The position numbers were made by a program, and so were the translations under genes. From positions 1,901,448-1,965,447 of the forward strand of contig CP054182.1 in NCBI GenBank assembly GCA_015709675.1: a stretch of 64,000 bases of DNA, given 5' to 3'. This document shows positions 12,019-26,891 of this stretch, piece by piece. Source of the DNA: Ignavibacteriales bacterium (GTDB taxonomy: Bacteria > Bacteroidota > Ignavibacteria > Ignavibacteriales > Ignavibacteriaceae). A model generated the notes under the pieces. That model did no database searches and was not told the origin of the DNA. It saw only the letters and a list, made by a program, of their open reading frames with translations. Numbering within the stretch: the first letter of the stretch is position 1; every line of letters starts with the position of its first letter.

Positions 12019-13515
12019 TTAATTTTTCTGATACACTCCGTGGCAGTCAGGGCACTGGTTGTATTCAATTCCCTGATTCAGATTTGAGGGATGGATGAAA
12101 TCCATGCCGTCGAGCGAAACCATTTCCTTTTCATTGGCAATTTTCTGTCCTATGATGGTATGGCAGACATTGCAGTCAGAAGAAATTTTTCTGCCGTCCG
12201 CGGAGGTATGTTTATCATCATGGCAGCGGAAGCATCCTTCATAATACATATGCCCGAGATTATTGGGATATTTTTTCCAGCTGACCTTCATGGTCGGGAA
12301 GTAGTTGTTGGAATAAATTTCCTGAATTGCCTTAATGGATTTAGCAAGATCGGCCTGGCGGGTTTTCATCACATCCGGATAAGAGGCGCTGTAGAAATTG
12401 CTGATATACAGGTCGATTTTCTTTACTGCTTCTTCGGTTGTGTAATAGTCTTTTTCGAGCACATCCATTGCAATACTCTTTATGTAGGGGAGGGTTGGAT
12501 CAATCCGTCCGGAGGACATATAGCGGTTAAGCATTTTATCAGGCTGATTATATATATGAGCAGGGCGGTTGTGGCAGTCAATGCAGTCAAAGCGGCGGAG
12601 CTCTTTATCCGGGGGAGTGAATCCGGCTTTTTCCTTCGTTGTATATACCACTTCTTTGCCTTCCTTGTCTATTACCTTAATCCAGGGAATGGATTGGCGG
12701 CTTTCATCATCGGTGTAGTAAAAGATGTCGTTTGCGATGTTCATGTGATAATGAATGCCGTTTGAAGTGCCTGAGGTTGCAGTTCCGCCCCCGACTTTCA
12801 TAAGCATGGTGAGGGAGTGCAGAGTGTTTGCTTCATCGGTCAGATAGTAATTGCCGGATACTTTCTTCTCACTGAAGAAATGAGCCGGCCAGTGGCACTG
12901 CTCGCAGGTATGCTGAGCAGGGCGCAGATTCTTGATAGGTGTTTCAATCGGACGCGAGTATTTATTGAAAGCAACTGAATAGAGCTGATAGGCACCGGAA
13001 ATCTTTGACTGTACAAACCAGTCAGCTCCAGGGCCGATGTGACACTTAGCGCACCCGACACGGCTGTGTGCAGAGTTAAGATACGCTGTATATTCAGGAT
13101 GCATCACTTCATGGCACATGGTTCCGCAAAACTCATCTGAGTCGGTGTATTCGTATGCCTTAAAGCTGCCGAATGCTGAAAAAACAAGCAAAAGAACCGT
13201 AACAACGGTAATCATGGAAACCGCGGTACGGTGTTTGGGATCATTCAGATCAACTACCGGCATTCTTCTTTCCTTGGCAAGACCCCGCTTTTTAAGCGAG
13301 TGTTCGCGCCAAAGTGCAACAGCTACCAGCAGCAGTCCGCATATCATAATAGCCGGAAGGATGATGAAGGCGATTATGCCCATATAGGGTTTTGTCTCAT
13401 GAGCAAAAAACTCAAGCGTCATGAGGAAGAGGATAAGCCCGAAGGATATCCCTGCAACAGCGAACCCCAGAAGAGCCAGCGGCGAATAAAACGCCTGCGG
13501 TAATTTACCTTTCAT
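12019..13515 (-). CDS. Membrane-anchored seven-haem cytochrome c, NapC/NirT-like
   Basis: 498 residues. Three hydrophobic segments (about 10-32, 40-62 and 95-117) are followed by a periplasmic domain with seven CXXCH motifs in order: CGTMCH, CAKCH, CEQCH, CIDCH, CFRCH, CNVCH, CPDCH. The first membrane-proximal motifs, with HPEY and HSRVGCAKCH, resemble the NapC/NrfH quinol-dehydrogenase type. Such proteins pass electrons between the quinone pool and periplasmic carriers. It begins 12 nt after the stop of the b/c fusion gene upstream and ends at a strong terminator, so the two form an operon and probably one electron-transfer complex. A quinol-oxidising role is inference from the family; the terminal acceptor is not shown by the sequence. 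Confidence 0.85.
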   Translation of the reverse strand: MKGKLPQAFYSPLALLGFAVAGISFGLILFLMTLEFFAHETKPYMGIIAFIILPAIMICGLLLVAVALWREHSLKKRGLAKERRMPVVDLNDPKHRTAVSMITVVTVLLLVFSAFGSFKAYEYTDSDEFCGTMCHEVMHPEYTAYLNSAHSRVGCAKCHIGPGADWFVQSKISGAYQLYSVAFNKYSRPIETPIKNLRPAQHTCEQCHWPAHFFSEKKVSGNYYLTDEANTLHSLTMLMKVGGGTATSGTSNGIHYHMNIANDIFYYTDDESRQSIPWIKVIDKEGKEVVYTTKEKAGFTPPDKELRRFDCIDCHNRPAHIYNQPDKMLNRYMSSGRIDPTLPYIKSIAMDVLEKDYYTTEEAVKKIDLYISNFYSASYPDVMKTRQADLAKSIKAIQEIYSNNYFPTMKVSWKKYPNNLGHMYYEGCFRCHDDKHTSADGRKISSDCNVCHTIIGQKIANEKEMVSLDGMDFIHPSNLNQGIEYNQCPDCHGVYQKN

Positions 13516-13527
13516 GACCGATACTCC

Positions 13528-15732
13528 TTACTGTTTGTTTTCTTCGTTGTTTTCTTCCGGGTCAATGATATCATCTTCGCCGAATTCTTTTTCTTTAAGT
13601 TTATCCTTAATTCTCTGCAGTTCAAGCGGATGCTCTTCAGCCATCTCTTCTTCGGTGATGGTACCCTTCCACCATGCAAGACTCATCGGATACACATCAG
13701 GATTGAACATCACAAAGTAGAAATGCCATACCACAATTGCCAGGAACGCAAGCCAGGCCTCATAATAGTGTATGGTGCGTGCGATATCCCATCCGAGTTT
13801 GGTAAAGAGATTCATAAAGGTATTGTCGAACCACATAATTACACCGGTAACCGTCATGACGATGGTACCCCAGATCAGTGCCCAGTATTCAGCTTTTTCA
13901 ACATAGCTGAACCGGTCAAGAAGCGGTTTATCCTTCTGCAGGCCCAGGTTATACTTAAAGACGCCGATAGCATCTTTTGCATCCTGAAGACGGGGGAGAA
14001 GATCGCGGATAAGCTGCTTGCCCCGGGGCACAAACAGGATGTAATATATATGGTAGAGTGAGACCAGAGTCATCACCACTGCTGCAATACGGTGAATCAG
14101 ACTGCGCAGTTCAAATGCGTTTTCACTGATATTCCGGATGGAAACAACCCACCAAGCATTCGGGAAGCGGAGCATAAATCCTGTGATAACCAGCAGAATG
14201 AAGCTCACGGCAAGCGTTATATGCTGTATCCGTTCATTCTTTGACATTCTGAGATACAGTGCGTGGCTGTGCTTTTCATGAGGAATAAGCCCGCGCTGCT
14301 TCATCTTTTTAATCTTGGACTTCTTAATAAAGTCAATAATATTATGGAAGAACATGCCGCCAATGGTGCCGACGATCATCAGGATATATCCGAACGCGAT
14401 GTAATAGAGAATCGGTTCTTCTTCCTTTTCCAGAGTAACGTGAATTTTTCCAACGGTGAAATTCTCGTTAGCGCCCGGATGGCATGATCCGCAGGTGGCA
14501 ACCAGATTCGATTTGTGAATTGTTGAAGTCGGGTCGGATGATGATTTAATATTGTGCACGCCATGGCATGATGCGCAGTTGGCAACAGATGCCGAACCGC
14601 CTTCAAGAGCCAGTCCGTGATATGTATCCTGAAAGGTTGCAAACCGGTTGGCTGATATGCCATATTTATCAGAAAGCTTAACCGAGTTATGGCATGGAGC
14701 GCAAACCTGGGCAGAAACATTCTGAAACGCAACCGGCGCCTTGGGGTCTTTGGTATCTAATATATTATGTTCGCCGTGACAATCGGTGCAGACTGGTGCA
14801 TCCACATTTCCCTTTGCAACTGCAAGACCGTGAGAACTTTCATTAAACTCTTTAAGAATATCTTCATGACATTTTCCGCAGGTTTCCGGAATGTTTTTCT
14901 TTGCAACCGGAGAAGTTGGGTCTGTACCCTTGTTAATATCATGCGCGCCATGGCAGTCCACGCATCCTGCTGCCTTGGCATTCCCTTTCATGAGGGCTTT
15001 TCCGTGAACACTGTTATCATATGCTTTAATGAATGCCTGGCTGGTGCTGAACTGGCTTCTTACCTCAGGGGCATCAAGGTGACAGCTCAGGCAGAGTTTT
15101 TCTTCAGCGCGTTTTGTGGCAAGAGTATCACCGTTCATTGAGCTCAGGGTAATCGGAGTTGCATGGCAGGACTGGCAGTCGTTAAATGCTTTCACACCTT
15201 TTTCAATGGAGCGGTAATGGGCTGAGTGTTTGAATTCTGCATCCTGCTCAGCATGGCATTTTACGCAGCTCAGATCGCCTGAAGCACCTGCCTTTTTAAC
15301 TCTCTGCACTTCATGAGTACCGTGGCATCCTTTACAGTCGTATGCTTTTCCGGTGCCTTTGCCTCCGGATTTAACCATAAAGGGGTGGAACAGGTGCTTT
15401 ACGGGAGCATTTTTATGGCAGGAGATGCAGTTAACCGGCTGGATGTTTTCTTTATGCGGAACTTCGTCCGGGTCAAAACCGGTATGGCAGGCCACGCATT
15501 CCAGTTTGCCGTGCACTGATGAGTTAATTTTTTTCTCATCGGCAAAAAGGGAAATTTCCTTTCCTTTTTTCTCCATGGTCATGGTGTCGTCAGAGTGGCA
15601 GGTCAGGCAGTCTTCTTTAGTCTGGGCTAAGGATTGGACGGACATCAGACTAAACAAAACAGCAATAAAGAGGCTAATCCGGCAGAAGTTCAAATATGAA
15701 GTTCCAGAGTATTTTTTTGAGTTCAAGGTCAT
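13528..15732 (-). CDS. 13-haem cytochrome c fused to a membrane cytochrome b domain
   Basis: 734 residues. The signal peptide ends near SLAQ (residue 37). A periplasmic region of about 390 residues carries thirteen CXXCH motifs: CLTCH, CVACH, CISCH, CKGCH, CVKCH, CQSCH, CLSCH, CVDCH, CGKCH, CTDCH, CAPCH, CASCH, CGSCH, many with paired HG(A/E/V)H ligands such as CHGAHDI. After a first membrane helix (about 440-460), a cytochrome b561/formate-dehydrogenase-gamma-like domain follows with four or more helices and candidate haem-b histidines in RIQHITL, LIHRIAAV, YHIYYI and VVWHFYF. The architecture recalls the CbcL-type b/c quinone oxidoreductases known from metal-reducing bacteria, but with more haems than CbcL as I remember it. 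It precedes the 7-haem protein by 12 nt. The tail is acidic. Role: inferred exchange of electrons between menaquinone and periplasmic haems. Confidence 0.88.
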   Translation of the reverse strand: MTLNSKKYSGTSYLNFCRISLFIAVLFSLMSVQSLAQTKEDCLTCHSDDTMTMEKKGKEISLFADEKKINSSVHGKLECVACHTGFDPDEVPHKENIQPVNCISCHKNAPVKHLFHPFMVKSGGKGTGKAYDCKGCHGTHEVQRVKKAGASGDLSCVKCHAEQDAEFKHSAHYRSIEKGVKAFNDCQSCHATPITLSSMNGDTLATKRAEEKLCLSCHLDAPEVRSQFSTSQAFIKAYDNSVHGKALMKGNAKAAGCVDCHGAHDINKGTDPTSPVAKKNIPETCGKCHEDILKEFNESSHGLAVAKGNVDAPVCTDCHGEHNILDTKDPKAPVAFQNVSAQVCAPCHNSVKLSDKYGISANRFATFQDTYHGLALEGGSASVANCASCHGVHNIKSSSDPTSTIHKSNLVATCGSCHPGANENFTVGKIHVTLEKEEEPILYYIAFGYILMIVGTIGGMFFHNIIDFIKKSKIKKMKQRGLIPHEKHSHALYLRMSKNERIQHITLAVSFILLVITGFMLRFPNAWWVVSIRNISENAFELRSLIHRIAAVVMTLVSLYHIYYILFVPRGKQLIRDLLPRLQDAKDAIGVFKYNLGLQKDKPLLDRFSYVEKAEYWALIWGTIVMTVTGVIMWFDNTFMNLFTKLGWDIARTIHYYEAWLAFLAIVVWHFYFVMFNPDVYPMSLAWWKGTITEEEMAEEHPLELQRIKDKLKEKEFGEDDIIDPEENNEENKQ

Positions 15733-16203: not shown

Positions 16204-17130
16204 ATGAATTATATCATCGGGATAGACGGCGGGGGCACAAAAACCCATTGTGTTCTTGCCGCAAGAGATAAATCACCCGTTTTTGAATGTTACGGGGGAC
16301 CGGCTAACTTCCTTATGCTCGGAACGGAAACAGTCTCTGCAACCCTGCTTGAGCTTGTGCAGCAGTGCCTTGATGCTCAGAAAATCGGGTTTCATCAGAT
16401 TGATGCCGTGCTGCTTGGAGCAACCGGCGCGGGGAGAAGATCAGATGCTGAAACACTTGAACGGGATTTTCTCTCATTCATTCAGCAGAAGAATATCCGG
16501 ATACGAAACTTTTCCGTTGAAAGCGATGCGCGCATTGCCCTTGAGGGAGCATTTTCCGGGCGTGAGGGTTGTATCCTTATAGCAGGTACCGGCTCAATCC
16601 TCTTCGGAAAGGACAACAAAGACCGTATATACAGAGTCGGCGGTTTCGGAAGATTTATCGGCGATGAAGGCAGCGGATATATGCTTGGTAAACGGGGGCT
16701 GATGGCCGCGGCTAAAAACTTTGACGGCAGAGGGCCTGATACGCTGCTGCTGAATCTTCTTTCACAGGAATTCAAAATATCCTCCCCGGAGGACCTGATT
16801 ACAAGGATATACCGCGAGAACTTTGACATCGCTTCGTTTGCTCCGCTGGTGATTAAAGCCGCGGAACAGGGGGATCATCAGGCGCTGAAGATTGTTGAAG
16901 AAGAGATTGATGAACTTATCCTGCATATTAAAGCTATAAGAAAAAAGATTATTGTCGCTACTTTGCATGTTTCTTTCATCGGGGGACTTATAGCAAATGA
17001 TACGTTTTACTCCCGTACCTTCAGGGAGAAAATTACCAAGACCATGGCTGATGTGAGAGTGATTGATGCTGAGAACAGCCCTGCTTATGGCGCAGTATTA
17101 ATGGCTGCAAAAAAACTTTCAGGCAATTAA
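16204..17130 (+). CDS. BadF/BcrA-type N-acetylglucosamine/muramic acid kinase
   Basis: 308 residues of the ASKHA fold, BadF/BadG family. The phosphate-1 loop IIGIDGGGTKTHCVLA is at the N-terminus; the phosphate-2 region GCILIAGTGSILFG and the GGFGRFIGDEGSGYMLG segment are typical of GlcNAc kinases and MurK. It would phosphorylate cytoplasmic amino sugars released from muropeptides with ATP. The downstream genes encode an AmpG-like permease and two NagZ-type glucosaminidases, which supports GlcNAc and/or MurNAc as substrate; the choice between them cannot be made by eye. Gap to the next gene is 28 bp. Confidence 0.85.
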   Translation: MNYIIGIDGGGTKTHCVLAARDKSPVFECYGGPANFLMLGTETVSATLLELVQQCLDAQKIGFHQIDAVLLGATGAGRRSDAETLERDFLSFIQQKNIRIRNFSVESDARIALEGAFSGREGCILIAGTGSILFGKDNKDRIYRVGGFGRFIGDEGSGYMLGKRGLMAAAKNFDGRGPDTLLLNLLSQEFKISSPEDLITRIYRENFDIASFAPLVIKAAEQGDHQALKIVEEEIDELILHIKAIRKKIIVATLHVSFIGGLIANDTFYSRTFREKITKTMADVRVIDAENSPAYGAVLMAAKKLSGN

Positions 17131-17158: not shown

Positions 17159-19042
17159 ATGGCTTCTGAAAAGGCAACAAAACGTAATCCCTGGGCTTGG
17201 GTACCCTCTCTCTACTTCGCTGAAGGAATTCCCTATATCGTGGTTATGACTCTTTCGGTAATTATGTATAAGCGGCTCGGTGTCTCCAACACTGAGATTG
17301 CCTTATATACAAGCTGGCTGTATCTGCCCTGGGTGATTAAACCGCTGTGGAGTCCTCTGGTTGATCTTACACGTACCAAACGTTTCTGGACTGTTATCAT
17401 GCAGCTGTTTATCGGAGCAGGTCTTGCGGGCATTGCGCTTACCATTCCGGCTGATGATTATATACGCTACACCATGGCATTCTTCTGGCTGCTTGCGTTC
17501 AGTTCCGCCACGCATGATATTGCCGCGGACGGATTTTATATGATTGCTCTTCCTGAACATGAACAGGCGCTATATGTGGGCATCAGAAGCACTTTTTACC
17601 GTGTTGCAAGCATTACGGGCCAGGGACTGCTGGTTATTCTTGCCGGTACTCTTGAAAGTTCAACCGGGCTTCCTCCGGCTGAGTTCTCATTTAGGGCCGT
17701 TAAAGGGGATCAGGCAAATGTCCGCTTCCTGGATGATTCCGTGCAGTTCAGAAGTGTTGCTGCCGGTGATCTGCAGATTCTTGTCTCTGATGCAAAAACT
17801 TCTATATCTCTGGTTCAGACCCCAAAAGAAACAACAGACAGCCTCATCGGTGCGGTTAAGGAATATAATCTTTCCAACGGTTTTTATGGCACACAGGCCG
17901 TACCCGCGCCTGCTGCTGCTGCTGAAGAAGAGGAAGGCTGGTATCAGACGTATATCAGCAAACCGTACAGTGAGTATATCGTCACTCCGCTTGAGGATTT
18001 CCTCCGCACCAATTTTGGTGATGAAGCTAAACAGACTGCGCGTGTGCTGAAAGCCGGCAACGTGGGAATTGTATATATCCGGCTGAGTGAAGCCCCCGGT
18101 CGTGAGACGGTGGTCAATATCTCAAAAAGCGGCGGAGATAATAACTTCACGATGCTTGAAGGGGCGCGCATTGTATTCACCGACAGCAACTGGAATATTC
18201 CTGCCGCTGTCGCAGTACAGACCGATCCGAAGCTCAATTTTGAATCAGCGGCAACATTTCAGGCAGTATCAGGCAATATTCCTCTGGCCTGGAGCATTAC
18301 TTTTTATATCATTGCCGGACTGTTCCTCCTCTTTTTTATCTGGCATAAATTTATTCTTCCTTATCCGGTGACCGATAAAGCAGCGGTGAGCGGCGGGAAT
18401 ATTTTCAAAGAGTTTTTCAGAACGTTTGCTCTCTTCTTTAAGAAGGAAAAGATTGGACTGATACTTGGCTTCCTCCTCTTATTCCGTTTTGCTGAAGCCC
18501 AGCTTGTTAAACTTGCTTCTCCTTTTCTGCTGGACACAAAGGAAGTCGGCGGGCTTGGCCTGACCACTGCTGAAGTGGGATTTGTTTATGGTACTGTGGG
18601 TATTCTTTTTCTGACTCTCGGCGGAATTCTTGGCGGTATCGCGGCTTCCAAAAAAGGACTGAAATACTGGCTGATGATTATGGTCGTTTCGATTAATGTA
18701 CCGGACCTTCTATATGTATATATGGCTTATGCACAGCCGGAAAATTTTCTGATAATTAATATCTGTGTGGCCATTGAGCAGTTTGGCTATGGTTTCGGCT
18801 TTACCGCGTATATGCTCTTCCTGATATATGTAAGTGAGGGAGAACATAAAACGGCACATTATGCCATCGGCACAGGGTTTATGGCTCTGGGCATGATGAT
18901 TCCCGGTATGTTCAGCGGATGGCTTCAGGAACTTATCGGCTATCAGAATTTCTTTGTGTGGGTGATGATTGCAACCATTCCAGGCTTCATTATTGCAAAA
19001 TATCTTCCTGTTAGTCCGACATTTGGCATGAAGAAAGAGTAG
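17159..19042 (+). CDS. AmpG-like MFS permease with large inserted extramembrane domain
   Basis: 627 residues. The N-terminal half matches AmpG/SLC33-like transporters (YFAEGIPYIVVMTLSVIMYKR, YLPWVIKPLWSPLVD, and the ATHDIAADGFYMIAL motif). AmpG imports anhydro-muropeptides into the cytoplasm. Between helices 5 and 6 (about residues 165-375) there is a 200-residue non-membrane insert. It includes an Ala/Glu-rich linker and a stretch (about 303-360) of the form YIRLSEAP...VNISKSGGD...FTDSNWNIPAAVAV, which looks like a secreted beta-sandwich module. The C-terminal half (from about 378) again has six helices. The insert would face the periplasm if topology is as in AmpG. The operon position between an amino-sugar kinase and NagZ enzymes supports muropeptide import. 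Confidence 0.83.
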   Translation: MASEKATKRNPWAWVPSLYFAEGIPYIVVMTLSVIMYKRLGVSNTEIALYTSWLYLPWVIKPLWSPLVDLTRTKRFWTVIMQLFIGAGLAGIALTIPADDYIRYTMAFFWLLAFSSATHDIAADGFYMIALPEHEQALYVGIRSTFYRVASITGQGLLVILAGTLESSTGLPPAEFSFRAVKGDQANVRFLDDSVQFRSVAAGDLQILVSDAKTSISLVQTPKETTDSLIGAVKEYNLSNGFYGTQAVPAPAAAAEEEEGWYQTYISKPYSEYIVTPLEDFLRTNFGDEAKQTARVLKAGNVGIVYIRLSEAPGRETVVNISKSGGDNNFTMLEGARIVFTDSNWNIPAAVAVQTDPKLNFESAATFQAVSGNIPLAWSITFYIIAGLFLLFFIWHKFILPYPVTDKAAVSGGNIFKEFFRTFALFFKKEKIGLILGFLLLFRFAEAQLVKLASPFLLDTKEVGGLGLTTAEVGFVYGTVGILFLTLGGILGGIAASKKGLKYWLMIMVVSINVPDLLYVYMAYAQPENFLIINICVAIEQFGYGFGFTAYMLFLIYVSEGEHKTAHYAIGTGFMALGMMIPGMFSGWLQELIGYQNFFVWVMIATIPGFIIAKYLPVSPTFGMKKE

Positions 19043-19053
19043 CACCCGGTCCG

Positions 19054-21936
19054 ATGAAACGCATAATGTTATTTTTATTTCTGGCGGTAATTGTCTCATT
19101 TCTTCTGACTGCTTCGGTTTCGTATAACCGGCATGATCCAAAGGGAGATGCAGCGTTTATACGCGACACTACGTTTATAAATCCGGGGAATTATCTCTTT
19201 TCACAGCCGGCAAGCAAGTGGGTAAATGAAACACTTGCTTCAATGACTCTGGAAGAGAAAGCCGGACAACTGGTCTTCCCCAACGCAAACGGATTGGATG
19301 CTTCCGACACATCAGCGTCATATATACGCCTGAAACGTCTGGTTGAGGAGTATAAAGTAGGCGGTTTTGTTTTTTTCAGAAGTAAACTTCCGGAAAAAAC
19401 CCTGCTGGTAAATAAACTTCAGAGACTTTCCAAACTCCCGCTTCTGATGGCTGCTGATTTCGAACACGGAGTGGGAATGAGGATAGCCGAAGGCACGGAC
19501 TTTCCCAGTCTGATGGCGCTTGGTGCCGCTGATGACAGCCTGCTTGCCTATGAGATGGGTGCCATTATCGGCAGGGAGTCAAGACGGATAGGCATCCATC
19601 AGAATTATGCTCCCGTTGTTGATGTTAATAATAATCCTGATAATCCTATTATAAACACCCGTTCACCCGGAGAAGACCCTGTGATGGTCTCCCGGATTGC
19701 CGCTGCTCTGATGAAGGGGATGCAGGATGCAAAGCTGGTTGCCACTATTAAACATTTCCCCGGTCATGGAAACACTTCGCAGGATTCACATAACGAAACC
19801 GCGATTATTTCCTCCTCCAAGTCGGAATTTAATTCTACTGAACTGTATCCTTTTCGCCGGCTGATTGATGACGGAGCGCTTTCCGTAATGGTTGGGCATA
19901 TACGGATTCCTGAAGTTTATGCATCTGGTCTTCCTGCAACGCTCTCGCCTGAAATCACCACTGACCTTCTGAAGAAAGATTTGCATTTTAAGGGGCTCGT
20001 GGTAACAGATGCAATGAATATGCATGCCATCAGCAAGGTTTACCCTGATAGTCTCTCCTCACTTATGGCTATAAACGCAGGGAATGATTTAATTCTTTTT
20101 CCTGCTAATCCTGAATCAGTAATTACTGCAATTGCTAATAGTGTGCGGGCAGGACTTATCTCCGAGGAGCGCATTGATGCCTCGGTAAGAAAACTGCTCA
20201 CCATAAAAGAATGGGCAGGGCTTTCTGAGAACCGGCTCATTGATGATGAGGATATCCTTCATTCGGTTAAAAGCGGTTACGCTGAGAAAATTGCATTTCA
20301 GATAGCAAAAAAATCCATTACGCTTGCAAGAGACAAAAAGAATAACATCCCTCTTAAAACAGCCAAAAAGAAGGAATATATTCATCTGATCGTTACCGAA
20401 AATCCTGGTGATAACGGTGCATATTTTGACAGTCTTCTTGTCTCAGCATATCCCGGTACGGAGACGGTCAGACTTAACAAACGTACAACAAACCGCGAAC
20501 TGAAAAAAATGATCGCGGAGCTGAAGAAGCATAAAACGATAATCATTTCCGTTTATAACAGTATTTCATCTTTCAAGGGTACACGGTCATTTGATCCCCG
20601 CATTGAAAAGATGTCGCGGAAGATTAATGCTCTTAATAAAAATAAGATACTTCTGTCGCATGCTGATCCGTATATCACGGATCTTTTCCCTTCAGCCGGC
20701 ACGTATATGCTCAACTATGGAAGTTCCGCTGTATCGGAATTAGCCCTCTTCAAAGCGCTGGCCGGAGAAAATCAGATAACCGGAAAACTTCCGGTTACTA
20801 TCCCTTCTGCAAAACTCAGAAAAGGGGACGGGCTAACCAGGAAATCCGTTCGCATTGAATATATCGCTTCCGAAGATACGATGTTTAACGGAGCAGACAG
20901 GCTCATTCAGCAGGGAATACAGGATTCCGTTGCTCCCGGTATGACCGCCCTGGTGATTAAAGACGGAGATATCGTCTATAAAAGAACCGCCGGCACATTC
21001 ACGTATGATCCTTCCTCAACGCCGGTTACTGACAGCAGTATCTATGATCTGGCCTCTGTTTCAAAGGTCATCGGTACAACCACGGCAGTCATGATTTGTG
21101 TTGACAGAAAACTTTTTTCCCTTGATGACAAGGTGGTTAAATATCTTCCGCAGTTCGGAGCAAAAGGGAAAAAGAATATCACTATCCGTAATCTCCTGGT
21201 ACATAACAGCGGACTTCCGGCGTTTAAAAAATATTATCAACTCGTGAAGAACGGCAATGAACTGCTCAAGGATATTTATAATTCTGAGCTGATATATAAG
21301 ACCGGCGAAAAAATGGTCTATTCCGATCTTGGTATGATCACCATGCAGAAGATCATTGAAAAGGTCACCGGAAAGCGGCTCGATAAATTTCTTCATGCAG
21401 AAGTTTTCAGCAAACTGGGGATGAAGAGCACCATGTATGCACCCCCGGCTTCACTGAAACACCGGATGGTTCCCACAGAACTTGATAATTACTGGCGGAA
21501 CCGGCTGCTCATTGGGGAGGTTCATGATGAAGCGGCGTCCATGCTTGGCGGAATTGCAGGTCATGCCGGTCTTTTTTCAACTGCTGGTGATCTCGCGGTT
21601 TTTCTGCAGATGCTACAGCAGGGAGGAGAGTATGACGGCAGAAGATATATCAAAAATGAAACCGTTGCCCTCTTTATTAAAAGGCAGTCAGATCAGAGTA
21701 CGCGGGCCCTGGGATGGGATACACCGGATGAAAAGTACCCCTCTGCAGGTAAGTTCTTTTCAAAATCCTCCTACGGACATACCGGATATACTGGTACATC
21801 TGTCTGGACCGACCCGGAAAAGAATGTTATTGTAATACTGCTAACCAACCGTGTGCACCCTACAAGGGTAAATTCAAAACTGATGCGCTTCCGGCCTGAG
21901 TTTCATGATGAAATCATGAGGGCACTGGGGTACTGA
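19054..21936 (+). CDS. nagZ: Secreted NagZ-type GH3 glucosaminidase fused to a class C-like serine hydrolase
   Basis: 960 residues with an N-terminal signal-like hydrophobic segment (IMLFLFLAVIVSFLLTASVS). Residues about 50-590 are GH3: KHFPGHGNTSQDSH at 233-246 is the NagZ His/Asp dyad loop, and Asp319 in VVTDAMNM is the expected nucleophile. Residues about 605-955 are a beta-lactamase/esterase-type serine hydrolase: Ser668 and Lys671 in the SxxK box (ASVSK), Tyr756 in YSDLG, and HTG near 909 in place of KTG. NagZ removes GlcNAc from muropeptides; the second domain could act on peptide or ester bonds, but its substrate is unknown. Such GH3-serine hydrolase fusions are known in Bacteroidetes-type genomes. 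The next gene starts 1 nt after its stop. Confidence 0.88.
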   Translation: MKRIMLFLFLAVIVSFLLTASVSYNRHDPKGDAAFIRDTTFINPGNYLFSQPASKWVNETLASMTLEEKAGQLVFPNANGLDASDTSASYIRLKRLVEEYKVGGFVFFRSKLPEKTLLVNKLQRLSKLPLLMAADFEHGVGMRIAEGTDFPSLMALGAADDSLLAYEMGAIIGRESRRIGIHQNYAPVVDVNNNPDNPIINTRSPGEDPVMVSRIAAALMKGMQDAKLVATIKHFPGHGNTSQDSHNETAIISSSKSEFNSTELYPFRRLIDDGALSVMVGHIRIPEVYASGLPATLSPEITTDLLKKDLHFKGLVVTDAMNMHAISKVYPDSLSSLMAINAGNDLILFPANPESVITAIANSVRAGLISEERIDASVRKLLTIKEWAGLSENRLIDDEDILHSVKSGYAEKIAFQIAKKSITLARDKKNNIPLKTAKKKEYIHLIVTENPGDNGAYFDSLLVSAYPGTETVRLNKRTTNRELKKMIAELKKHKTIIISVYNSISSFKGTRSFDPRIEKMSRKINALNKNKILLSHADPYITDLFPSAGTYMLNYGSSAVSELALFKALAGENQITGKLPVTIPSAKLRKGDGLTRKSVRIEYIASEDTMFNGADRLIQQGIQDSVAPGMTALVIKDGDIVYKRTAGTFTYDPSSTPVTDSSIYDLASVSKVIGTTTAVMICVDRKLFSLDDKVVKYLPQFGAKGKKNITIRNLLVHNSGLPAFKKYYQLVKNGNELLKDIYNSELIYKTGEKMVYSDLGMITMQKIIEKVTGKRLDKFLHAEVFSKLGMKSTMYAPPASLKHRMVPTELDNYWRNRLLIGEVHDEAASMLGGIAGHAGLFSTAGDLAVFLQMLQQGGEYDGRRYIKNETVALFIKRQSDQSTRALGWDTPDEKYPSAGKFFSKSSYGHTGYTGTSVWTDPEKNVIVILLTNRVHPTRVNSKLMRFRPEFHDEIMRALGY

Positions 21937-21937
21937 C

Positions 21938-23545
21938 ATGGTATCATATAAAAAGATTTTTCCCCTGAAGGCCGGGCAGAGAACGGCTGTTGAAAGTCTG
22001 ATGGCAAAAATGACTCTGCACCAGAAGATTGGTCAGATGATCTGTCCTGGTTCAGTCGGAGTTTTTCAGTCTTCTGAAAGTGCCGCATACAGAAAAATCA
22101 CTTATCTGATAAAGAACTTGGGTATCGGGGGTATTGTGCTCTTCAGGGGTGATATATATGCCTATTACGAACTGATAGAAGAGCTGCAAAGCATAAGCAG
22201 GATTCCCATTCTTTTTTCCGCGGATTTTGAACGGGGGCTGGCCATGCGGATTACCAATACCCTTTCATTCCCCCTGAATATGGCAATTGCTAAAACCGGT
22301 GATCCCTCACTTGCAGAGCGTATGGGCAAAGCTATTGCTCAGGAGTGCAGGGTGCTTGGCATATCAATGAATTTTGCTCCGGTTGTGGATCTTGCGGGAG
22401 AAAAAAAGAATCCGGTTATTAATACACGGGCTTACGGCCCGGACAAGGAAATTGTAGCTGCGTTTGCCGAAGCATTTATCAAAGGAGCTTCTTCGGAGCA
22501 TATTCTCAACTCGGCAAAACACTTTCCCGGGCACGGATATACCACCATGGACAGCCACCGCGAACTTCCGCTGATTAACCGGACAAAAAAGAAACTGCTC
22601 TCGGATGATATATATCCTTTTCAGAGATGCATTAATGCCGGCGTGCAGAGTATTATGATGGGGCATCTTGAAGTTCCTGCTTTTGAATCACGTGAAGGAT
22701 TGCCGGCTACCTTGTCCCGCTCCATCGTAACAGGACTGCTCAGAGATCAGCTTGGTTTTGACGGGCTGATTGTTTCTGACGCGATGAACATGAACGGTGT
22801 AACCAATTATTTTTCTGCCCGTGAGGCAGCAGTACTGGCCGTTAAAGCCGGCAACGATATGATTCTTCTGCCTCCGGATGAAGAAATTGCTTTTGATGCA
22901 GTTTTGCAGGCAGTTACCGATAAGGTTATTCCCTCAGAACAGATTGACCGGAGTGTAAGCAGAATACTCTATGCAAAAATGTGGTCCGGTTTATTCAGCC
23001 GGCAGAAAAGCTCCATTCATCAGGTAAAAAAGATTGTTTCTTCCGGAAAATCAGCCCGGCTTGCAAGAGAGATTGCCGATAAGTCTGTAACGCTCTCAAA
23101 AGGAGCGATGAAATATCTCCCCGCTAAGCGGAAAAGGCCTCTCTTCTGCATTACCGTGTCAGACAAGAGCCCTTCAGAGACGGAAATGTTTTTTTCCTCC
23201 ACGCTAAAAAAAATTATGCCGGGCACGGAGAACATTTTTATCACACCGTTTGTGAATGAAGAGATGCTGACAAGAATTGCAGGATCACTTTCGCCTGATA
23301 TACAGCCCGTGCTGCCGGTTTTTTACCGGGCAAGATCGTATCAGGGAAGGCTGGAACTGCCTCCCCACCTGCTCCGTTTCTTCGGGCTTGTTGAACAGCG
23401 CTTTCCGGACTGCATATATATCTTTTTCGGGAACCCTTTCCTGAGCGAACAGCTCGGCAGGGGAAAAAATACCATCCTTGCTTATGGCGATGTGCAAATC
23501 TCACAGACTGCCGTTATAGCCAGACTAACCGGAGTTGCTCTCTGA
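21938..23545 (+). CDS. Second NagZ-type GH3 beta-N-acetylglucosaminidase
   Basis: 535 residues, GH3 catalytic domain in the first ~340 residues: FSADFERGLAMRI, NFAPVVDLAG, the KHFPGHGYTTMDSH dyad loop and the nucleophile region IVSDAMNMNGV. A further ~170 residues resemble the GH3 C-terminal domain. No signal peptide, unlike the upstream paralogue, so a cytoplasmic enzyme acting on imported muropeptides is likely. The two proteins share motif order and appear to be a tandem duplication that diverged in location and accessory domain. The stop at 23543-23545 lies 4 nt before the kinase start. Confidence 0.87.
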   Translation: MVSYKKIFPLKAGQRTAVESLMAKMTLHQKIGQMICPGSVGVFQSSESAAYRKITYLIKNLGIGGIVLFRGDIYAYYELIEELQSISRIPILFSADFERGLAMRITNTLSFPLNMAIAKTGDPSLAERMGKAIAQECRVLGISMNFAPVVDLAGEKKNPVINTRAYGPDKEIVAAFAEAFIKGASSEHILNSAKHFPGHGYTTMDSHRELPLINRTKKKLLSDDIYPFQRCINAGVQSIMMGHLEVPAFESREGLPATLSRSIVTGLLRDQLGFDGLIVSDAMNMNGVTNYFSAREAAVLAVKAGNDMILLPPDEEIAFDAVLQAVTDKVIPSEQIDRSVSRILYAKMWSGLFSRQKSSIHQVKKIVSSGKSARLAREIADKSVTLSKGAMKYLPAKRKRPLFCITVSDKSPSETEMFFSSTLKKIMPGTENIFITPFVNEEMLTRIAGSLSPDIQPVLPVFYRARSYQGRLELPPHLLRFFGLVEQRFPDCIYIFFGNPFLSEQLGRGKNTILAYGDVQISQTAVIARLTGVAL

Positions 23546-23549
23546 AATC

Positions 23550-26500
23550 ATGAAAACCACTGGAAGTGAATCTGATCATTTGAAAAAATATACTGCAGTT
23601 AGCGGTAACCGGGGGCTGATTCTGATCGTTTCACTCGTCCTTATTTTTATTATCGTAAATGTCGTTATTGTATTTGATGCTAATCAGGATTTTTACGATT
23701 TCAGGGAAAACTCAGCAATTGTTAAAGTGGTACGCGATCTTGATTCTTCAATAAATTTTAATCATCGAGAAGTTTATACACGGCACGATTCGCTTACCCT
23801 TGCCGAGCAGGGGGAGCACTTCCTTGCACTTGCAAAGCAGTATGAATATGCAGCTGACCTGATCAGCAACATGAATGCCTATGAAAGATTTGGCTTTGAT
23901 ACGGGCCGTATTACCCCTGATATTGATTCAATGAAACGGTATGCGCTGGCACTGTCTGATTTCTCATCATCAGAAAATGCACAGTCGTTATTATATTACC
24001 TGCGGTATTTTGATCACAGGATTCTTGACGCCTTTCACGATTTAGACCGGACCATACGGAGCACACAGCGGGAAAAAGCTGCCAGGCTGAATTATTACTA
24101 TTTGCAGCTGCTGGCAGTTTCATCCTCGGCATGTCTGCTTGCGGTGATTCTGATATTCTTATATACCCGCGTGCGCCGGAATCTGGCAGAACGCCTACGT
24201 ATGCAGGAAGAGCTGAATGCTGAAAAGAATAAGTACCGCAATCTTGCCGAGAGCATGGATGATGCTGTGCTTATTACCGACAAAGAGGGAATTGTTGTAT
24301 TTGCAAACAGTGCCGTAGAGAAGGTGACAGGATATACGCCGGCTGAACTGACGGGAAGAGTCTCCTATAAAACCCTGACTGACTCAGTAACCTGGTCATC
24401 ATCTGAATCCCGGCTGAACGACAGACTTGCAGGGCGGAGTGAAGAGTTTTTCAGCAGGATTATCCGAAAAGACGGAACTCCTCTCCGCGTTTATATTAAA
24501 GGCTCTCCTTTCAGAGATCATAACGGAGTGGTAATCGGTTCAATAGGCGTCATATCCGATCTGAGTGATCAGCTCCGAATGGAACGCGAGGCAACCATAC
24601 ACAGGGAAAACCTTATCGGAGTTATTGAAAACAGCACAGATTTTATCTGGGCGTTTGATCAGGAGCTCAGACTTACCGTCTATAATTCCGCGTTTAAGAG
24701 GGAATTTAAAAATCTGTTTCATGCCGAGACAGAGACCGGCATGCAGATTCTTGATTATGTCGGTGAGGTGCAAAAGCGGGCCTGGCAGAGGATCTGCAGA
24801 AAGGCACTTAAAGGAGAGAGAGTGCGGTTTGATCAGAAGTATGAAATAGACGGCGAACAAAGAGTTTATTCCGTTGCGCTTAATCCTCTTAAGGATCAGG
24901 AGGGGATGATTTCAGGAATAGCATGTTTTATGAGTGATATTACCTCACGCGTAAAAAATGAAGAGGAACTCCGTGCTGCAATGATTACCGCTGAGGAGGC
25001 AACCCGGTTAAAAACCGAGTTCCTTGCCAATATGAGCCATGAAATAAGAACCCCTCTTAACGGAATTCTGGGAATGGCAAATTTGCTGATTGATACCGAG
25101 CTTAATGAATATCAGCGTCTGTATGCCAATTCCATAAAGGAGTCAGGGAGCTCTCTGCTGGGTATTCTTAATGATATCCTTGATATATCGAAAGTTGAAG
25201 CGGGCAAAATTGAAATCTTTACAGAAGAGTTTGACCTGCCTAATCTGGTGGAAGCGCTGGCGGAGATTTATTCAGTTCAGGCAGAAAGCAAGAACATCTC
25301 ATTTTATATAGAATCCTCTCTTTCCGTCCCTCAGAGAATCCGCTGTGACCGGCTCCGGCTGAACCAGATTCTTTCCAATATCCTTAACAACGCGTTTAAG
25401 TTTACCGAAACAGGATATGTTAATCTAGCCGTGAGAGCAGAAATCACGGATGAACTTTCCGGAATCATGCATTTTACCGTTGAAGATACGGGACCGGGTA
25501 TGAATGATGATACTCTCGCTTCAATATTCACTGAGTATGCACAGGCAAATGCTGCCGTGGTCCGTAAGTTCGGAGGTACGGGACTTGGACTAAGTATATC
25601 AAAGAAACTTGCTGAATTAATGGGGGGAACGATTACAGTTGTCTCAGAACCGGGCAGGGGAAGCAGTTTCATGATTTCACTGCCGTTTACGCTCAGCCAG
25701 AAATATATACCGCCTTCACTTCCGCAGCAGAACGGGCGGGTGCTGGTGGTTACCAATGAGAATAAAGGCGGAGATATTATCGCAGGTCTTCTTTCTGCCA
25801 TCGGATATACACCCGTCGTGGTTTTTAATGCCGCCAACGCCTTAGTGAGGTTAACGCGGGCTGCACAGGATGGTTCTGATTTTGAATTTATTCTCTGTAA
25901 CTATACGCTGCCGGGTTATGATGGATTCTCTCTTCTAAAGCAGATTAAAGAAAATTACCCCAGGCATCCGGCTCTCTTTATCCTCATCGGCAGAAAAAAA
26001 TTAGCGCCGCTGAAATCAAAAATAACCGCCGCAGGGATTATGCCCCTTGCCAAACCCTTCTGTATGCGTTCTCTTATGCAGATGCTTGAGGTACTTCATC
26101 CTGCCGAAAGGAAACAGCAGGTCAGAACAGTAGCGGAGAATATACGCCGGCTGAAGATCCTTATTGCTGATGATAACCGGATTAACAGAACTGTGCTTAC
26201 AGGATTCCTGCAAAAACTCGGCCACGATGTAACCGAAACTTCGGACGGGCAGGAGGCTCTTTCAGCATATATGAGCGATACTTTTGATATGATTATGCTT
26301 GACTGCCAGATGCCGGTTCTGGACGGCTATCAGGTCAGCAGAAGAATAAGGGAGTCAGAGGGTGAGAGCGGAAAACGGATTCCGGTTATTGGTGTTACCG
26401 CAAACAGCGGGCATGATGAAAAAGAACGGTGTCTTGCTGCCGGAATGGATGACTTTTTAGTAAAACCCTTTGAAATTTCCGACCTGCGGAGAACTGTTGA

Positions 26501-26891
26501 ACTGAATACCGTTCAAAGCCAGGTTGAGGAATACAGTGACAGCGGCTTCGAAATTAATAATCCACAGATTACTTCTCTCAGAGAGTCTCTTGATAATGAA
26601 ACGGTTGATGAACTCCTGGAACTTTTCCTGAATGATTTCCAGAACTACCTCGGTTCACTTTCGGTACGGATAGAAGCAGGAAACTTTAACGGACTTTCAG
26701 CCGAATCCCACACCATTAAATCCGGCTGCGCAAACATCGGCGCTGAAAAGCTGCGGAAACTGGTTGATAAACTTGAGCAGGAAAGTGATAAATCATCAAG
26801 ATCCGAGATCCGCGCGCTGTTTAACAAACTTGCTGATGAATATATCTACGTCAAGCAGAAGATTAAGAATTATATAACCCTTAACGGGTGA
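23550..26891 (+). CDS. Hybrid sensor histidine kinase (2 PAS, two receivers, HPt)
   Basis: 1113 residues from the ATG at 23550 (the frame also allows a TTG at 23535 inside nagZ2). Order: TM1 (about 20-42), a helical periplasmic sensor (about 45-180), TM2 (about 190-212), coiled coil, two PAS domains (about 225-350 and 350-475), HisKA with phospho-acceptor His497 in MSHEIRTPLNG, HATPase_c (VEDTGPGMND, GGTGLGLSIS), a degenerate receiver (about 730-850) where the acceptor is Asn784 (ILCNYTLPG), an intact receiver with Asp918 (IMLDCQMPVLDG), and an HPt domain with His1054 (SHTIKSG). A BarA/TorS-like phosphorelay without an adjacent output regulator. The 4-nt spacing to nagZ2 places it in the recycling operon, so it may sense cell-wall status; this is inference. 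Confidence 0.9.
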   Translation: MKTTGSESDHLKKYTAVSGNRGLILIVSLVLIFIIVNVVIVFDANQDFYDFRENSAIVKVVRDLDSSINFNHREVYTRHDSLTLAEQGEHFLALAKQYEYAADLISNMNAYERFGFDTGRITPDIDSMKRYALALSDFSSSENAQSLLYYLRYFDHRILDAFHDLDRTIRSTQREKAARLNYYYLQLLAVSSSACLLAVILIFLYTRVRRNLAERLRMQEELNAEKNKYRNLAESMDDAVLITDKEGIVVFANSAVEKVTGYTPAELTGRVSYKTLTDSVTWSSSESRLNDRLAGRSEEFFSRIIRKDGTPLRVYIKGSPFRDHNGVVIGSIGVISDLSDQLRMEREATIHRENLIGVIENSTDFIWAFDQELRLTVYNSAFKREFKNLFHAETETGMQILDYVGEVQKRAWQRICRKALKGERVRFDQKYEIDGEQRVYSVALNPLKDQEGMISGIACFMSDITSRVKNEEELRAAMITAEEATRLKTEFLANMSHEIRTPLNGILGMANLLIDTELNEYQRLYANSIKESGSSLLGILNDILDISKVEAGKIEIFTEEFDLPNLVEALAEIYSVQAESKNISFYIESSLSVPQRIRCDRLRLNQILSNILNNAFKFTETGYVNLAVRAEITDELSGIMHFTVEDTGPGMNDDTLASIFTEYAQANAAVVRKFGGTGLGLSISKKLAELMGGTITVVSEPGRGSSFMISLPFTLSQKYIPPSLPQQNGRVLVVTNENKGGDIIAGLLSAIGYTPVVVFNAANALVRLTRAAQDGSDFEFILCNYTLPGYDGFSLLKQIKENYPRHPALFILIGRKKLAPLKSKITAAGIMPLAKPFCMRSLMQMLEVLHPAERKQQVRTVAENIRRLKILIADDNRINRTVLTGFLQKLGHDVTETSDGQEALSAYMSDTFDMIMLDCQMPVLDGYQVSRRIRESEGESGKRIPVIGVTANSGHDEKERCLAAGMDDFLVKPFEISDLRRTVELNTVQSQVEEYSDSGFEINNPQITSLRESLDNETVDELLELFLNDFQNYLGSLSVRIEAGNFNGLSAESHTIKSGCANIGAEKLRKLVDKLEQESDKSSRSEIRALFNKLADEYIYVKQKIKNYITLNG

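Follow-up and report, generated by a model that had tools for sequence, protein, structure and literature searches.

The locus studied here raises the question of what a domain-sized segment contributes to a membrane transporter that it interrupts. The window (64,000 nucleotides from an Ignavibacteriales bacterium, contig CP054182.1) contains, on the plus strand at positions 17159 to 19042, an open reading frame (ORF) of 627 amino acids for an AmpG-like permease of the major facilitator superfamily (MFS). The initial annotation had placed an extramembrane insert of about 200 residues between helices 5 and 6 of this protein (positions 17652 to 18285, corresponding to residues 165 to 376), had likened part of it to secreted beta-sandwich modules and had considered that it might capture muropeptides or dock on the NagZ-like fusion protein encoded next. 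A passage of PMC4597091 calls it highly unusual for an MFS fold to have domains spliced into it. In the open-access literature we found no paper describing a domain between transmembrane helices (TM) 5 and 6; subscription papers, preprints and the AmpG cryo-EM papers lay outside this coverage.

The permease resembles AmpG

Pfam assigned the ORF to MFS_1. Against the NCBIfam model of the AmpG subfamily (TIGR00901), the ORF scored 159 bits (E 1e-46), below the cut-off of 350. Relatives scored 161 to 166 bits (three with the insert), 180 to 191 bits (three without) and 125 bits (one outgroup sequence); on score, these proteins fall outside strict TIGR00901 membership whether the insert is present or absent. 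A phmmer search of the PDB with the permease matched the AmpG structures 8zgz, 9c3f, 9j9z and 8zbb. The full-length AlphaFold2 model, built from an 80-row alignment (pLDDT 85.3, pTM 0.86), comprised 12 membrane helices by our own reading, and Foldseek ranked AmpG entries 1 to 4 for it (E 3e-8 to 2e-5). The nearest solved structures to the modeled MFS fold are those of AmpG, and the assignment as an AmpG-like permease was borne out, since AmpG gave the best PDB matches both by sequence and by fold. Some substitutions of G29 and A129 reduce the function of Pseudomonas aeruginosa AmpG according to parts of PMC5154545; the corresponding residues of the permease, G23 and A117 (assigned by eye via the primers published in that paper), were invariant across the 80-row alignment. 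Q131 of P. aeruginosa AmpG corresponds to H119 in the permease, and a table of the same paper gives the exchange of Q131 to H as tolerated.

The permease thus shares with AmpG of Escherichia coli and P. aeruginosa (TIGR00901) the MFS fold, two functional positions in TM1 and TM4 and a gene context of peptidoglycan recycling. It differs in the insert: the AmpG chains in the PDB lack any domain between TM5 and TM6. For P. aeruginosa AmpG, PMC5154545 describes, in the part available, 167 extramembrane residues between two six-helix parts, which is a different site.

The permease gene lies in a putative peptidoglycan salvage cluster

The gene upstream of the permease (16204 to 17130, plus strand) codes for a BadF/BcrA-type, NagK-like kinase (119 bits, with a GlcNAc kinase cut-off of 370). 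Downstream, on the same strand, follow a NagZ-like glycoside hydrolase family 3 (GH3) protein fused to a serine hydrolase domain of the beta-lactamase/PBP type (19054 to 21936; 143 bits, cut-off 207) and a second NagZ-like GH3 protein (21938 to 23545; 171 bits, cut-off 207). The window and its relatives have the NagK-like kinase gene first and the permease gene next, often followed by the GH3/beta-lactamase fusion and in some cases by another GH3 gene. In Bacteroidales, the order is GT2, DUF4922, SpoIID, permease and NamZ, with an FAD oxidase in some loci, followed by MurT-like (HGSNAT_cat), MurK-like (BadF, just below the cut-off) and MurQ-like (SIS) genes. We assembled this arrangement from several loci, chiefly L107 and L052. 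As judged from the predicted products, the context of the permease gene is peptidoglycan salvage. Core and gene context together point to import of peptidoglycan fragments.

The Bacteroidales loci resemble the operon of Tannerella forsythia. We take NamZ to be the counterpart of T. forsythia YbbC, and the DUF4922 gene is probably the counterpart of the second glycosyltransferase there. The T. forsythia operon is given, in a section of PMC5388701, as xanthan lyase, two glycosyltransferases, lytB, ampG, ybbC and murTKQ, an order similar to that of the Bacteroidales members, and its AmpG (Tanf_08365) restored uptake in an E. coli reporter (PMC5388701). This AmpG imports GlcNAc-anhMurNAc and GlcNAc-MurNAc, and a strain deleted for ampG could not grow when supplied with digests rich in GlcNAc-anhMurNAc(-peptides) or GlcNAc-MurNAc(-peptides), as reported in excerpts of PMC7670621. 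The descriptions of T. forsythia AmpG in the available portions of PMC5388701 and PMC7670621 mention no extra domain.

Several further genes were noted. Far from the permease, the window's genome encodes an AnmK homologue (G000:C1:3438002-3439135; 314 bits, cut-off 24), which is in line with the use of anhydro-MurNAc. A gene at 23535 to 26891 lies directly downstream of the second GH3 gene and overlaps its end; its product, a hybrid histidine kinase containing PAS, receiver and Hpt domains, could regulate the salvage cluster. A neighboring pair of minus-strand genes at 12019 to 15732 has many CxxCH motifs, and their products resemble multihaem cytochromes with helices in the membrane. Elsewhere, in a record labeled 'Bacteriophage sp.' (MT835805.1, locus L200), SpoIID, an insert-bearing AmpG-like permease, NamZ and an FAD oxidase are encoded one after another; the record looks like a bacterial contig with a phage label.

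The insert is a folded domain between TM5 and TM6

In the AlphaFold2 model, TM5 spans residues 133 to 168 (17555 to 17662) and TM6 residues 374 to 398 (18278 to 18352), and the roughly 200 residues of the initial annotation lie between them as a domain of residues 169 to 373 (17663 to 18277; all features on the plus strand). The alignments with two AmpG chains from the PDB break at residues 162 and 376/378 of the permease, positions that sit only 4 to 6 residues apart in AmpG (167/173 in 8zgz, 170/174 in 9c3f). The domain is predicted to be periplasmic because of the N-in topology, a basic 'DLTRTKR' loop between helices 2 and 3 and an excess of K and R in the putative cytoplasmic loops.

The insert was predicted to fold in the full protein and also alone, with a pLDDT of 84.6 and a pTM of 0.75 (AlphaFold2, alignment of 79 inserts). 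The chain passes from a strand behind TM5 through two short strands and then helices to six strands leading into TM6. A first strand (174 to 181) and linker occupy residues 169 to 206 (17663 to 17776). Residues 207 to 217 (17777 to 17809) form what we read as the first strand of an immunoglobulin (Ig)-like module; its match to strand A was made by eye via L170, a natural Bacteroidales variant whose 122-amino-acid (aa) insert has no helical excursion and in which the Ig-like module is seemingly contiguous. The helical excursion itself (residues 220 to 298; 17816 to 18052) was modeled with lower confidence, the ten-residue means of excursion and linkers falling as low as 51 to 69; it is carried by most members and is shorter in inserts of 164 to 178 aa. 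The remaining six-strand part, an Ig-like beta-sandwich (residues 299 to 373; 18053 to 18277), was the most confident region of the insert model and contains the motif elements GN, LS..P, GD, G.R..F, NW and DPKL. Near-invariant polar positions of the insert are D327, R337, N344 and D356.

Searches with the insert returned few leads. A Pfam scan of 79 inserts, including that of the window, gave no consistent family, and the single matches listed look like chance; NCBIfam gave no match for the insert alone. Neither the insert nor its profile had a convincing match in the PDB by sequence, and by fold the best Foldseek match there had an E-value of 0.03. With VIA, the fold reached Z-scores of at most 7.5, not above background, with rows of PapD, MSP and Calx-beta type at about 5 to 6. 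In the window's own genome, the insert profile found no gene besides the permease at E <= 10.

Modules found in secreted cellulases are kin to the second half of the insert

A tblastn search of plasmid records with the insert yielded one weak match (E 0.007), in a Nonomuraea record. The matched ORF contains CBM_2 and GH6 domains with two tandem modules between them. These modules scored 32.4 and 29.8 bits against the insert profile (HMMER) and a Streptomyces GH9 module scored 19.4 bits. Shuffled modules (6000) reached 11.5 bits at most, and about 2174 other ORFs no more than 6.2 bits. An hhalign comparison of the insert with the secreted modules gave a probability of 96.5% across 57 columns. 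In the reverse direction, the insert-bearing permease rows numbered 109, of which a profile of the three modules listed 108 at E <= 10 and 75 at E <= 1e-3 (Z=200; duplicates included in both counts); among 51 rows lacking the insert it listed a single one, at 0.9 bits. Because the module relatives were drawn from a search of 7.3 Gb, single-comparison E-values overstate the significance.

The stretch in common with the Nonomuraea GH6 and Streptomyces GH9 proteins covers about 60 residues with L..P, GD and F..NW, and the cellulase modules differ in being placed between or beside secreted enzyme domains. Module-bearing records were found twice, both actinobacterial and distant from the permease hosts. 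No Pfam model matched the two Nonomuraea modules above its cut-off, and the sequence of one secreted module had no PDB match at E <= 1 and no phage match at 1e-4. The regular expression F..NW..P was absent from the other ORFs of the examined loci, where the chance expectation is also 0. By these profile comparisons, Ig-like modules from secreted cellulases of actinobacteria are relatives of the insert's second half, and the likeness to secreted beta-sandwich modules that had been suggested for part of the insert holds for this half.

The insert is under constraint but changes more quickly than the core

In six pairs of relatives, the core had dN/dS values of about 0.015 to 0.07, while those of the insert were about 0.07 to 0.25 in five pairs, dS being saturated in the sixth; all of these values are rough, as dS exceeded 1 in several pairs. 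Estimates of this size indicate that the insert is under purifying selection. Compared with the core, dN of the insert was 2.7 to 8.7 times higher in five of the six pairs and 1.7 times higher in the other. Median identity to the window among 102 insert-bearing rows was 67% for the core, 23% for residues 169 to 299 and 43% for residues 300 to 373. The insert is therefore constrained, yet it evolves faster than the core. It is not a product of chance, because it aligned with nearly invariant positions across the window and 78 homologues and because its dN/dS is low.

A single pair chosen from the six (L035:6001-7842 and L016) showed synonymous differences in 21 of 187 same-residue codons within 161 to 360 and in 117 of 400 elsewhere. 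This dip hints at recombination of the insert segment.

Presence of the insert is optional

A scan of genome contigs confirmed at least 592 relatives, of which the best 80 were kept. According to their record titles, these 80 belong to Bacteroidota (48), Ignavibacteriota (8), Fidelibacterota (7), Calditrichota (5), Verrucomicrobiota (4), KSB1 (4), Planctomycetota (2) and Caldisericota (1), with one titled simply bacterium; most are metagenome-assembled genomes, so that single phylum labels may err. All 79 aligned relatives from these best 80 carried the insert, in a ranking that favors insert-bearing rows (L094, split over two frames, was excluded; L105, whose insert is longer, was omitted only from the insert alignment). 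Insert-bearing records include the titles Barnesiella, Dysgonomonas and Muribaculaceae, and the range of the insert extends from Ignavibacteria to Bacteroidales and beyond.

Among 138 sequences (149 proteins, including the window's, minus 11 duplicates), the distance between the anchors flanking the insert was 164 to 255 aa in 103 and 7 to 14 aa in 35. A later, larger set added lengths of 15, 17 and 122 aa, and the one 122-aa form breaks a strictly two-state distribution. Genome surveys gave the same picture of presence and absence. In 97 genomes (the window's and its relatives), the core was found in 95 (E <= 1e-20), and 40 of these 95 were insert-bearing by a frame of at least 594 aa, with G024, split over contigs, as an additional case; here and in the order of L070, frame length alone decided the class of rows without a fetched sequence. 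In that order, the core was present in 36 of 139 genomes (E <= 1e-80), with frames of at least 605 aa in 14 of the 36 and one frame of 545 aa that holds the 122-aa insert. Even a single genus, that of L070 (five genomes), contained a 621-aa frame in two genomes, frames of 420 to 422 aa in two and a fragment in one. In the phylum of L050, the core was found in 19 of 115 genomes (E <= 1e-60), frames being 643 to 645 aa long in two genomes and 543 to 588 aa in three. Finally, a phylum sample of 198 genomes contained the core in 60 (E <= 1e-20) and the insert in 12 (E <= 1e-5), each time in an AmpG-sized frame, a count that may miss more diverged inserts.

The initial annotation had named as the outcome that would undo it an insert common to all AmpG-like proteins of the phylum, with low complexity and no fold. 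The genome surveys rule out one insertion common to all of these proteins, and fold and conservation rule out an origin from low-complexity sequence.

A quick tree of the core requires at least 9 changes in the state of the insert, or 5 if only starred branches are counted; long branches leave some placements unsure, and the direction of change cannot be read from the tree. Insert and core distances agreed, with a Mantel r of 0.68 compared with at most 0.09 after permutation (200 permutations; 108 rows including duplicates). This agreement makes it more likely that the insert was gained once, long ago, and later repeatedly lost or replaced by short alleles than that it was gained many times. 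Relatives with and without the insert occupy the same kinds of operon, and the insert is thus optional.

Length alone can mislead in this family. Relatives of 505 to 530 aa (the L111-L118 clade, e.g., L111:5724-7238) could be taken for forms with a shorter insert, but alignment rejected this: they have no insert between TM5 and TM6, and their about 75 extra hydrophobic residues form a separate segment after TM6 that looks like two added helices.

The insert is not tied to the neighboring GH3/beta-lactamase gene

Insert-less permeases were found in both the NagK-type and the Bacteroidales-type operons and often adjoin the GH3/beta-lactamase fusion too. We compared 52 NagK-type loci, excluding those with less than 3.5 kb downstream, those with SpoIID or DUF4922 neighbors and duplicates. 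Of the 27 loci with the insert, 19 had a GH3 or beta-lactamase homologue no more than 4.5 kb away, as did 12 of the 25 without it. The corresponding odds ratio, 2.6, tends towards an association and is not significant (Fisher p 0.16). Among the scanned insert-bearing loci of other than the Ignavibacteria type, many of them on short contigs, such a homologue was seen only in L037, L077, L079 and L099. Presence of the insert is clearly not contingent on this neighbor.

A periplasmic accessory module is the favored reading

We consider it reasonably probable that the protein is a proton-coupled, AmpG-like permease for peptidoglycan fragments equipped with an Ig-like periplasmic accessory module, which likely serves as a tether or dock. 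This reading builds on the anatomy in the predicted model, the conservation, the kinship and the optional presence, all of which are established. The permease would be an MFS importer of peptidoglycan fragments, with predicted substrate and proton coupling, in an AmpG-like clade found mainly in bacteria of the FCB group. Sitting between TM5 and TM6, the Ig-like module would ride on the N-terminal bundle, outside the gate between the two halves. It would raise the local substrate concentration as a tether or docking surface, with the sacculus or any of several periplasmic wall hydrolases as contacts. A generic tether to wall material or enzymes is preferred because the insert is not tied to one neighbor. 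Taken by itself, the tethering role is a tentative proposal, drawn by analogy. The module is probably dispensable for transport as such, since relatives lacking it are found in operons of the same kinds.

The nearest functional parallel, by analogy and with no claim of homology, is the extracellular domain of the mammalian peptide transporters PepT1 and PepT2 (SLC15). According to sections of PMC4597091, this domain consists of Ig-like folds inside an MFS peptide transporter, binds trypsin and is proposed to cluster trypsin at the transporter. Ig-like folds spliced within an MFS transporter are common to both cases; PepT1 and PepT2 differ in having two Ig domains and in the site, which lies between TM9 and TM10 rather than between TM5 and TM6.

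As an alternative, the insert could be a capture or lid domain that binds muropeptide and alters the specificity or affinity of transport. Its predicted periplasmic side, the occurrence of such modules in carbohydrate-active secreted enzymes and the near-invariance of several polar positions (the four named above) speak for this possibility. A site between TM5 and TM6 belongs to the N bundle, however, and should leave the cleft uncovered; two of the four residues, D327 and N344, lie in the GD and NW motifs common to the secreted modules and may be structural, and the insert evolves faster than the core. On balance we regard a capture function as unlikely. Somewhat less likely still is a passive structural element that aids folding or packing of TM5 and TM6 or protects the loop and is selected for stability only. 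The faster evolution of the insert, the variable or missing helical part and the several changes in its presence would fit such an element, but operons of the same kinds still harbor insert-less forms, and conservation of the module motif extends over many phyla. Docking of the insert on the adjacent NagZ-like GH3/beta-lactamase fusion, which would feed its products to the permease, is very improbable: the neighbor occurs here and in most insert-bearing NagK-type loci, but 12 of the 25 insert-less ones have it too, and it is absent in 8 of the 27 insert-bearing NagK-type loci and in many insert-bearing loci of other groups, so that this suggestion of the initial annotation is left unsupported. 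A more distantly encoded protein or some other partner might still dock there.

Returning to the accessory module as tether or dock, one may speculate, again by analogy and with a good deal of doubt, that a cellulase-type Ig module, having become part of the permease, recruits wall hydrolases or the sacculus to it and that its presence or absence among otherwise similar salvage operons marks wall scavengers versus self-recyclers. The permease provides a bacterial case with a natural series of forms with and without the domain in similar operons, from environmental bacteria and Bacteroidales, and this series makes the contribution of an extramembrane domain to a transporter directly testable. 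The insert bears on the uptake of peptidoglycan fragments that is predicted for these bacteria.
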